This document shows, piece by piece, positions 4,774-11,397 of a stretch of DNA of 33,060 bases. Source of the DNA: Candidatus Uhrbacteria bacterium. Lineage in GTDB: Bacteria; Patescibacteriota; Patescibacteriia; UBA9934. The stretch covers positions 1 to 33,060 of the forward strand of contig JAUYIW010000032.1 of NCBI GenBank assembly GCA_030688135.1. Direction: 5' to 3'. The translations under genes and the position numbers were made by a program. The notes under the pieces are model-generated. The model was given only the letters and a program-made list of their open reading frames with translations, searched no databases and had not been told where the DNA came from. Every line of letters starts with the position of its first letter. Positions within the stretch are counted from its first letter, which is position 1.

Positions 4774-4825
4774 ACCGCAGTTATCGACTAACAGATCGCG
4801 ATTTAAACCACTTTAGACTACCCTT
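4774..4825. repeat. 52-bp direct repeat, copy 1
   Basis: accgcagttatcgactaacagatcgcgatttAaaccactttagactaccctt; one mismatch to 4914-4965. Confidence 0.9.
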
Positions 4826-4913
4826 TGTCTGCGTATAAAGTGAGATTAAATCGATGAGATGTTAGTTGAGAACGAGGAGCGGAGTAAACCGTAATTACTG
4901 TACGGTGTCGAGC

Positions 4914-4965
4914 ACCGCAGTTATCGACTAACAGATCGCGATTTGAACCACTTTAGACTACCCTT
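4914..4965. repeat. 52-bp direct repeat, copy 2 (overlaps the 3' end of rpmJ)
   Basis: accgcagttatcgactaacagatcgcgatttGaaccactttagactaccctt; includes the rpmJ stop codon. Confidence 0.9.
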
Positions 4966-5071
4966 GGCGCTGCTTATGCTTAGGATTCTTACATACAACC
5001 TGAACACGACCCTTTCTTCGGATCACGCTACAATCTCTACACATTTTCTTTACAGATGCTCGAACTTTCAT
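4958..5071 (-). CDS. rpmJ: 50S ribosomal protein L36 (bL36), 37 aa, not in the ORF track
   Basis: Reverse complement reads [37 protein letters not shown]; Zn-binding C/C/C/H pattern; between infA and rpsM. Confidence 0.97.
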
Positions 5072-5351: not shown

Positions 5352-5567
5352 TTAGAACCGGTACGTGATGCGACCCTTTGTGAGATCGTAAGGGCTGATC
5401 TCAACTTTGACGTCGTCTCCAGGCATAATACGTATGCGAAATTTTCGCAAACGACCTGAAAGATGAGCGATGATTTCCTGTTCGTTTTCGAGTTTTACTC
5501 GGAACTGCCCGCTTGGTAAAGACTCCTCTACCGAACCGCGCATTTCTATGAATTGTTTTTCTGCCAT
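5352..5567 (-). CDS. infA: Translation initiation factor IF-1
   Basis: [71 protein letters not shown]. Confidence 0.97.
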
Positions 5568-5784
5568 ATTTACGTCGGAATGATACCAGAATGCGCAAAT
5601 TTTGGCAATAAACTCGATGGCGGAAGTTTACTATATGAGCCATTTTAAGTCAAGAATACCCATGCACAACTCTATATTTAGCAATATTTGGCTAATATTT
5701 AATAAAATTGTACCCCAGCCAGAGGCTATTCCATTCCATAAACTTAAACCTTAACAACGTTGAGGGTTAAGGAATTACAAACGA

Positions 5785-6108
5785 TTAGAAGAATATATAC
5801 CCAATTGCTGCCGTGGTAAAATTCATAATCAGCCCTGTGCCAGCAGCCAATAACCACTTCTTTCTAAACATAATCGCCAGAGTCAGCGCTTCGAAAACAG
5901 CCACGCACGCCTCAATAAAAAACCAATTCATACCATAACCATATACTAACTCCCAAAAAATTGGATGCGAAATCAGGTTCAGGCCGACTACCAACAAAGC
6001 TACGCATCTATCATCAACGCACTTAAGCAAAGCTAACGCAATAGGAAGCTCAACTATAATCGTGAAAACAAGGAATACTATTTCTTCCATCTCTTTACCG
6101 ATAACCAA
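5785..6108 (-). CDS. Small polytopic membrane protein
   Basis: 107 aa with several hydrophobic helices; 31-bp overlap with the upstream gene. Confidence 0.7.
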   Translation of the reverse strand: MVIGKEMEEIVFLVFTIIVELPIALALLKCVDDRCVALLVVGLNLISHPIFWELVYGYGMNWFFIEACVAVFEALTLAIMFRKKWLLAAGTGLIMNFTTAAIGYIFF

Positions 6109-6753: not shown

Positions 6754-6882
6754 CTTGAATTACGAAACTCGATGAGATTTGCGTGAACGGGCTGTCGATC
6801 CCCGTGAACCCTACTAAAACGTAGGGAGAATGGGGGCGACGGGCGCCCGTGAACGCAAAGATCGCGAGTTTCGTAATTCAAG
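6754..6882. repeat. 129-bp nearly fully self-complementary palindromic element
   Basis: CTTGAATTACGAAACTCG ... CGAGTTTCGTAATTCAAG perfect 18-bp ends; inner GCGTGAACGGGC/GCCCGTGAACGC, GTCGATCCCC/GGGGGCGAC and CCCTAC/GTAGGG stems. Confidence 0.85.
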
Positions 6883-9475: not shown

Positions 9476-9499
9476 CAAATAATAATCACCAAAACGTAA

Positions 9500-9524
9500 G
9501 CCGGCAGAACTTGCCGGTTTTTTT
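9500..9524 (+). terminator. Intrinsic terminator
   Basis: gCCGGCAgaactTGCCGGtttttttc. Confidence 0.85.
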
Positions 9525-9861
9525 CTTACAGCAAAGCCCGCATTTTAATGTAAAGGGGTCAGGTCTTCGATCGTCGATTTTGATGATTCACTATATCGCT
9601 TAGTGTAGAAATAAAGGGTAAAGGTAAAGGGGTCATATCCGGAATCCGGAATTATATAGAGTTTGGTTTGTCTTGTATCGCTCATAACCTCACCAAACTC
9701 ACCAATTGGCTCAAAATACACAAAACAGACAACAATTCGAAGCTCTGCTATTGCAAAGAGCGATCAATTAGGACACTCGCGCGTCTTTTTGTTTAGAGTT
9801 TTGTTTTTTGAAAAGGAGTTTTTAGACAGCCTGCGGTGTTGTGTGATGTTGTACTGATTTT

Positions 9862-10542
9862 TCATTCTATTAACTTGGCGCTTTTAACTATATTTTCAAG
9901 ATACTCAAAATCTCTTTCTGTATTATTGCTACAGACTGGCACGAACTCATAATTATATTTTTCTCCAATAACTTGAAGTGCTGGATAAGAACACAAGCCT
10001 AAAGTAGCATATTTAACTACCGTGAGACCATTCAGTTCTATGGTGGTTGGCGGCACTGGAATTAATTCCGGCGGATCGGATGCTTGTATCTGCCTAATGA
10101 CTTCTTCTGCGCTGAGCTGTGGTCGAAAGTGGACAAAATCAGACCTAACCCACGTACATGCTTCAAATCCGCCAATGTCACCGAATGCTACTTGATTTTC
10201 ATATTCCCAGTAGGGATCGATTCTGAATTTTGTGCTTCCCCAGTTGGGATTATATGGAACATCGAAAGCAATACCCTTTTCCGGATTGGAGTAGCGAACC
10301 CCAGTGTTCGGCAAATCATTATTAAATTGTTCATCGCATTGTGGATTTTGAGGTGAATTATATTGCGAAAGATTTTCTGCTGTAAGCAAAATTCTTTCGT
10401 CAGCCACAGTGTTTGTGGTTTCTATTGTGGTAGGTACTTCAGCGAGCGGTTCTGATTTTGTCCACAAATAGATGCCGCCAACCACCAGAATAATTACAAT
10501 TACCCCAATTGCTACTGAAATGTTTTTGGATGTATTGGTCAT
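9862..10542 (-). CDS. Hypothetical protein with N-terminal membrane anchor
   Basis: 226 aa; MTNTSKNISVAIGVIVIILVVGGIYLWTKSEP. Confidence 0.75.
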   Translation of the reverse strand: MTNTSKNISVAIGVIVIILVVGGIYLWTKSEPLAEVPTTIETTNTVADERILLTAENLSQYNSPQNPQCDEQFNNDLPNTGVRYSNPEKGIAFDVPYNPNWGSTKFRIDPYWEYENQVAFGDIGGFEACTWVRSDFVHFRPQLSAEEVIRQIQASDPPELIPVPPTTIELNGLTVVKYATLGLCSYPALQVIGEKYNYEFVPVCSNNTERDFEYLENIVKSAKLIE

Positions 10543-10604
10543 AGATTTTGAGTTAAGTATTATGATTTTAGTTTATTTTAAGAGAAAAATCAGCACAATT
10601 TCAC

Positions 10605-10993
10605 ACAATGTGCCGCGGATGATGCGATGTTTGTGAGTATAAAATTGTAGCATTGCTACAATTTTTTGCGAGCAAATGTCGCATATCCCGCTGTTGTCCG
10701 AAGTTCGCGAAGCGAAGCGAGCGGACTGAAGGACACAGTGGGATGAACATCCGCGGCACATTGTCCTAAATTCGAGAGTGGAGTGAACGACCGGAGGGAG
10801 TGAGTGAAGCGAGCGAATTTAGGACAACGTGCGCGGGTAATCCAATGTTTTTTGGAGCAAATCCCGAAGGGTTTGCGGAGAAAAATTTTGGATAGCCGTT
10901 GTTACACGGAGTTCCGCGAAGCGGAATGGAGTGGAACAGCGGCGATAGCCGCGCACGTTACTCGTAATGAAGCGAAGCGGAATTGCGAGTAAC
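10605..10993. repeat. Contiguous chain of four long inverted repeats (stem units A, B, C, D) with repeated three-way-junction architecture
   Basis: A outer stem 10605-10621/10748-10764 (17 bp perfect); B 10761-10774/10814-10827 (14 bp perfect); C outer 10826-10836/10949-10959 (11 bp perfect); D 10957-10964/10986-10993 (8 bp). Confidence 0.9.
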
Positions 10994-11034
10994 TCGTTGA
11001 TATCCAAACTTTCCTTCTCAAGGATAACCATATC

Positions 11035-11063
11035 TTGTGTATTATGCAAACCTTGAGTATTAT
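11035..11063 (+). promoter_or_regulatory. Putative promoter TTGTGT-17-TATTAT, 6 nt before ATG (leaderless)
   Basis: TTGTGT 11035-11040, TATTAT 11058-11063, ATG 11070. Confidence 0.4.
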
Positions 11064-11069
11064 TTAATC

Positions 11070-11315
11070 ATGGAAAATATTTTGAATAAAACGGAGCAAG
11101 TTTTGCGATTGCACAACTATAGTCCCGGAACGCGAAAAGCATATCTGCTCTATATAAAGGAATATCTCGCCTTTGCGAAAAAAAGAGTATCGCCTACGAA
11201 GTGGAAAAATTTCGACACCGGGTTTCGAAAATCCGACAGCGGGTTTCGAAATTTCGTGAAGCAAGAGAGAAAGTTGAACGTGTGCCTAAACCCCGTTCTA
11301 CTCGTAAATAATTAG
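11070..11315 (+). pseudogene. Remnant of a tyrosine recombinase (N-terminal SAM-like core-binding region), truncated and possibly fused to another gene's tail
   Basis: MENILNKTEQVLRLHNYSPGTRKAYLLYIKEYLAFAKK then unrelated sequence; no catalytic RHRY domain. A different frame gives KFRHRVSKIRQRVSKFREAREKVERVPKPRSTRK*. Confidence 0.65.
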
Positions 11316-11332
11316 AGCTTCTAAAACCGTAA

Positions 11333-11356
11333 ACCGGCAAATTCTGCCGGTTTTTT
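11333..11356 (+). terminator. Intrinsic terminator, near-duplicate of that at 9500
   Basis: aCCGGCAaattcTGCCGGttttttc followed by cttacagcgaagcccgcattttaatgcggg. Confidence 0.85.
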
Positions 11357-11397
11357 CTTACAGCGAAGCCCGCATTTTAATGCGGGTAATTTCATTT

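Follow-up and report, generated by a model that had tools for sequence, protein, structure and literature searches.

Integrons are the best-known platform for gene capture. Their cassettes are circular and each carries its own recombination site; within an array, the two halves of that site sit at the two ends of the cassette. Integron integrases, including those of archaea, are defined in part by the I2 region (PMC9668308), which has been credited with their shift to recombining single strands (PMC7790495). In known integrons the bottom strand of attC is the only one used (PMC2727003), and clusters of attC sites without integrases are termed CALIN elements (PMC9668308). Patescibacteria go unmentioned in the IntegronFinder 2.0 survey (PMC9024848), and the portion of a groundwater survey that counts integrons describes none in CPR (PMC12259885). 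Our own searches of the open-access journal literature for integrons in CPR found no report.

The window considered here, meaning the whole stretch of DNA that was analysed, comprises 33,060 nt of a Candidatus Uhrbacteria bacterium (GTDB lineage Bacteria; Patescibacteriota; Patescibacteriia; UBA9934; assembly GCA_030688135.1, contig JAUYIW010000032.1, positions 1-33,060 of the forward strand). Judged from sequence, its feature at 9815-11315 is very probably the attI-proximal end of a decayed integron-like platform, belonging to a CPR recombinase family that would capture cassettes at folded attC-like sites. We call the system integron-like rather than an integron because all the sequence evidence points to integron organisation and a single defining feature, the IntI-specific domain, is missing. 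The parts of the window are:

9815-9848, + strand: CAGCCTGCGGTGTTGTGTGATG, probably the right half of another, truncated attC-like site, recognised by its sequence and without a model match
9838-10609, - strand: third cassette, with an ORF at 9862-10542 (226 aa) reading away from the integrase
10602-10766, + strand: site A, attC-like with a three-way junction (covariance model match, alignment, covariation)
10602-10609, + strand: left box of site A, CACACAAT
10605-10621 / 10748-10764, + strand: outer stem of A
10693-10703, + strand: inner GTT box of site A
10760-10766, + strand: outer right box of site A, ATTGTCC
10761-10828, + strand: B, body of a tiny ORF-less cassette, whose ends TTGTCCTAAATTCG and CGAATTTAGGACAA pair over 14 bp
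10761-10774 / 10814-10827, + strand: stem of B
10826-10959, + strand: site C, attC-like with a three-way junction, AACGTGCGCGG ... CCGCGCACGTT (model match, alignment, covariation)
10826-10836 / 10949-10959, + strand: outer stem of C
10901-10909, + strand: inner GTT box of site C
10957-10993, + strand: D, body of a second tiny ORF-less cassette, with matched ends GTTACTCG and CGAGTAAC
10957-10964 / 10986-10993, + strand: stem of D
10991-10998, + strand: attI-like core AACTCGTT, 72 bases before the integrase remnant
11070-11315, + strand: truncated integron-type tyrosine recombinase, 81 aa (N-terminal domain Phage_int_SAM_4, PF13495, just under its cut-off; alignment with intact relatives)
11207-11254, no strand assigned: short palindromic repeat of the TTCGAAACCGGGTTTCGAAA type inside the integrase remnant, dispersed in the host genome

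An initial annotation had placed four stem units, A to D, at 10605-10993, read them as repeats of one architecture under selection for folded structure, and proposed folding both strands. The stems of all four units are real and lie at the coordinates given above. Folded as RNA, the + strand of 10595-11000 reaches -209.2 kcal/mol against -121.8 for shuffles (sd 5.7, z -15.2), and as DNA -113.5 (z -14.1); the - strand folds less strongly (z -11.8 and -11.1, respectively). The same stretch has a higher G+C content than its flanks and, on the + strand, a greater excess of G over C. The annotation had also staked its reading on covariation in homologues, and this is present. When A and C are aligned with five three-way sites from other CPR genomes (loci L014, L081, L135, L112 and L143), 93.9% of cells pair over the 27 base pairs that make up the outer stem and arm 2, and 14 of the 27 pairs have changed on both sides. 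None of 500 shuffles attained this level, slid controls gave two to five such pairs, and RNAalifold concurs with the structure of the alignment. A and C are covarying homologues; selection on a folded structure is thereby upheld, and the idea of one architecture stands for these two. B and D turned out to be something else, the paired ends of two tiny ORF-less cassettes lying between sites, with bodies so small that their ends pair into a hairpin. The bases shared at unit boundaries are the recombination boxes AAC and GTT, the AAC of site A reading AAT, and the feature extends beyond D to the attI-like core.

A and C are most likely attC-like sites of an integron-like cassette array and not an RNA, so that the comparison with attC suggested by the annotation holds. 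Sites of this type have the AAC...GTT boxes, inverted-repeat stems and folded structure of attC, with stem and spacer details that differ from the canonical ones. A pattern search (AAC, spacer, stem ... stem, spacer, GTT) found 66 sites in the 311 kb that lie upstream of recombinases against 5 in 645 kb downstream, and 12 upstream in the reverse orientation. The spacer list of this search was set after four loci had been seen, with all spacers tabulated afterwards; the 4/1 spacer pair occurs 42 times upstream and 0 times downstream. Sites are 70-190 nt long with branched arms and bulged spacers of 4 and 1 bases, their conserved inner arms carry compensatory changes, and the integrase coding strand is the better-folding one in 59 of 66. 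An alignment of 18 sites shows 100% pairing and both-side changes in 12 of 17 pairs; pairing of the outer helix, which was used to find these sites, arises partly by selection, and the inner helix, unused in finding, is likewise fully paired.

A covariance model built from these 18 sites, all from other CPR genomes, recovers the window, which the pattern finder, needing simple AAC/GTT stems, had missed along with locus L015. It makes exactly two matches in the 33 kb, both on the + strand and both modest in score: A (10599-10703, E 0.003, 21.4 bits) and C (10818-10911, E 0.015, 18.5 bits). The annotation had tied the stems to the adjacent truncated tyrosine recombinase, and the model bears this out: across 62 loci that supplied no training sequence, at E up to 0.001, all 46 matches fell upstream of a recombinase and on its coding strand, upstream DNA making up 202 of the 727 kb searched. 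Of the held-out loci with at least 1 kb upstream, 20 of 28 have a match. Run on Vibrio integron and class 1 integron arrays, the model found 0 matches.

The 5' part of a three-way unit is an ordinary site up to the inner GTT box, after which come arm 2 and the half that closes the outer stem; several loci have such a unit closest to attI. Which GTT ends the cassette was decided by comparing both with the next left box. In C, L081 and L014 the outer GTT fits better and is the cassette end; the inner one, considered as the true end, was rejected. In site A both fit the next left box, and the outer is preferred because its fit spans 14 bp. Of 64 CPR loci, 43 have the attI-like AACTNGTT no more than 350 bases upstream of the recombinase, mostly as AACTCGTT, the form that precedes the integrase remnant in the window.

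If the halves of a site lie at the two ends of a cassette, a right box should match the left box of the next site and not that of its own. Scored on bases that were not used for site finding, the ends of neighbouring sites match at a mean of 3.98 of 5 (24 of 44 perfect) and those of site and attI at 3.96 of 5 (14 of 23 perfect), against 2.71 of 5 inside one site and 2.57 at random. A canonical Vibrio array, taken as a control, gave 10 of 11 perfect matches between sites and a mean of 2.25 within them. The window follows this rule in B, in D and in the third cassette, where GTTGTGTG at 9838 is complementary to CACACAAT at 10602 in seven of eight bases; in each, the two cassette ends match as halves of one site should. 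Among 48 cassettes of relatives with matched ends, an ORF of 60 aa or more is present in 39 and absent from nine. The ORFs read away from the recombinase in 34 of the 39, the direction also taken by the ORF at 9862-10542 on the - strand, whose membrane-anchored product has no Pfam match.

ORF-less cassettes similar to B and D, of 32-106 nt, occur in loci L013, L081, L102, L112, L135 and L151. Locus L081 (G039:C4) has at least 10 sites in 10 kb, mostly near-copies of one 136-nt three-way unit and some with a body of about 30 nt; its ORF-less cassette appears to have multiplied. Cassette ORFs are also shared: one from an array on another contig of the host, C57, is common with L095 at 90% protein identity, and a 2H-phosphoesterase ORF of L016 is common with L124, on a Komeilibacteria contig, at 87%. 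These figures are no more than consistent with exchange between CPR.

Similarity of the integrase remnant to intact relatives ends near 11200, leaving about 45 recognisable residues, and we found no further integrase pieces in the window. Its relatives elsewhere in the order are intact, with lengths of about 260-278 aa. Counterparts beside intact genes, which the annotation had recommended seeking, do exist: L014 has a three-way unit, a GTT...AAC hairpin and then AACTCGTT upstream of an intact recombinase, and L013, L016 and L081 have the same boxes with ORFs between sites. In L014 and L015 the recombinase gene is directly followed by trmD, an order which suggests that the platform keeps a conserved chromosomal position within this family.

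The CPR recombinases have 58 residues between the KGxKDR and LRHSF motifs (maximum 73 over 88 proteins) against 100-101 in IntI1, IntI4 and IntIA, and so are without about 43 residues of the IntI-specific region, I2. The TIGR02249 profile scores 198-207 bits on them against a cut-off of 265, with the match split into two pieces, and it is at this same region that both the PDB and the TIGR02249 alignments break. In an AlphaFold model (mean pLDDT 86) the extra helix is absent at the I2 position; in fold, the closest structure is IntI4 (2a3v; TM-score, normalised by query length, 0.69), with XerA behind. XerA, XerC and XerD resemble the CPR proteins in overall size and in the distance between the two motifs (60-62 residues in the Xer proteins). 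Unlike them, the CPR proteins score 202-218 bits on the XerA profile NF040815 (best 218.3, cut-off 220) and far under the cut-offs of the XerC and XerD profiles, and their patchy presence and association with arrays are ill-suited to a chromosome-dimer resolvase. In a phylogenetic tree the CPR proteins and the IntIs each have a clade of their own (100/98 and 100/99, respectively); a sister relationship of the two is neither shown nor rejected (p-AU 0.216, in a tree with long branches).

Compared with chromosomal integrons such as that of Vibrio (NZ_CP049914.1), the CPR arrays are alike in layout: the recombinase reads away from the array with an attI-like site between, sites are folded and bounded by AAC and GTT, cassette ends are matched and the halves of one site unmatched, cassettes mostly hold one ORF in one direction, and the integrase coding strand folds better. 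They are unlike in the missing residues of I2, in having 11 perfect pairs in the site stem, 4/1 spacers and a conserved GATGTTT...AAATATGGG arm, and in that some sites are three-way junctions. The remark in the annotation that no named family with this layout is known needs qualifying; the integron cassette array is its counterpart, and the departure lies in the defining protein domain.

We propose a model in which the CPR recombinase would recognise attC-like sites folded as single strands and join them to the attI-like AACTNGTT, whereby circular cassettes would be captured, excised and reshuffled. Each cassette would comprise one site and usually one ORF reading away from the recombinase. 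Recombination would take place on the folded strand, which is the integrase coding strand and so the equivalent of the attC bottom strand in known integrons, with the crossover presumably between AA and C and between G and TT. The observations behind the model are the structure, orientation and location of the sites, the matching of cassette ends and the association with the recombinase. Against it stands the lack of I2, a region held necessary for single-strand recombination. The window itself adds a truncated integrase, modest scores for A and C, the AAT in A and a third site that is a half. This copy has no intact integrase and would be inactive in cis because its integrase is broken.

It is also conceivable, though unlikely, that the same cassette array is served by a recombinase whose substrates, like those of Xer enzymes, are palindromic sites in double-stranded or cruciform form. 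An enzyme without I2, the region credited with single-strand recombination (PMC7790495), would fit such chemistry, and archaeal XerA is among the PDB entries nearest to it in sequence. However, branched sites of 70-190 nt, the 4/1 spacers, the strand bias in 59 of 66 sites and compensation within the inner arms would all be superfluous for a duplex substrate. Keeping to recombination of folded single strands, it is tempting to speculate that CPR hold a separate integron lineage, one that achieves it without I2, by descent from a pre-I2 ancestor or as an independent solution, and that has three-way-junction sites and gene-less hairpin cassettes; we put this forward tentatively, as possible but short of probable. 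A wide CPR lineage with the full cassette layout and no I2 helix makes the I2 account directly testable. The system gives genome-reduced CPR bacteria a plausible route for sharing genes, and integron searches that require the IntI domain would be expected to miss it.

A profile scan with the recombinase alignment over genome contigs found at least 514 relatives, in over 500 contigs. Of these, 80 were kept, nearly all of them from CPR groups (Uhr-, Portnoy-, Nomura-, Dojka-, Peregrini-, Gracili-, Moran-, Woese- and Kerfeldbacteria, WWE3, SR1 and others), and the single relatives among them that bear the labels Actinomycetota, Margulisiibacteriota and Micrarchaeota may reflect errors of binning. 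Many recombinase contigs stop just upstream of the gene, as repetitive arrays would produce. The window host belongs to the same family as genome G009, whose recombinase contig shows no difference from PFJC01000023.1 (Candidatus Uhrbacteria) across the matched region. Among 73 genomes of the order, model-found sites are present in 13 of the 16 genomes with a strong recombinase match (E below 1e-90), the other three having none at the model threshold, and in 9 of the remaining 57 (Fisher p 2e-6). Two of these nine, the host genome and G058, have truncated recombinases. At E up to 1e-40 the recombinase is patchy, present in 18 of 73 genomes. The host genome has further model matches on contigs C57, C47 and C30, and no intact recombinase was found in its assembly, which is 92% complete. 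These sites resemble CALIN elements (PMC9668308) in having no intact recombinase found, and differ in being of the CPR type and on contigs that may be cut before a recombinase.

A structured non-coding or cis-regulatory RNA upstream of the recombinase would account for the very stable RNA fold (z -15.2) and for covariation, yet we regard it as highly improbable: one array has many such sites, separated by unrelated ORFs and often distant from the recombinase, they occur in genomes without a recombinase, and the cassette-end rule is meaningless for an RNA. The Rfam comparison that the annotation had called for gave no family at the gathering threshold in the window; the sole loose match in the region, to a microRNA family, was not credible, at 23 bits where 92 are required.

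A chance cluster of dispersed palindromes (REP, MITE or IS200/IS605 ends) beside a dead recombinase is scarcely credible, for although dispersed palindromes exist in this genome and a 32-nt inner piece of A has an exact copy on contig C67 of the host, sequence-diverse sites share one architecture, orientation and position relative to one recombinase family across many CPR groups, with 46 of 46 placements in held-out loci. The C67 piece had first suggested a dispersed repeat, a reading dropped once relatives showed the array layout. The whole 406-nt stretch has no copy besides itself in the host's own genome, of which 428 kb were read directly.

Dispersed repeats do touch the locus. Palindromes of the TTCGAAACCGGGTTTCGAAA type occur at about 18 places in the host genome, against 0 for a reversed control pattern; the copy at 11207-11254, which has mismatches, is probably associated with the loss of the integrase. 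A terminator-like direct repeat of about 60 bp (9491-9550 and 11324-11382, 1.83 kb apart) brackets the whole integron remnant. Elsewhere in the window, 6760-6880 is an imperfect intergenic palindrome of about 120 nt, TGAATTACGAAACTCG ... CGAGTTTCGTAATTCA, with near-identical copies in the same genome (L056 at about 5280, L058 at about 9100, L042 at about 2050 and L037 at about 1280); this family is dispersed and MITE- or REP-like. Another nested palindrome family, CGCCAAACC ... GGTTTGGCG, lies at L056 2580-3080 and L060 10330-10640, and insertion of a second long hairpin into the L056 copy yields a 500-nt branched fold. In L038, a perfect repeated hairpin, CCGTCACTCGGTGACGG ..., with near-identical stems at 4780-5060 and 5520-5820, lies near the start of a REP-associated-like ORF (TGCGAAAAATATGCTTTTATAACGATGGC...).
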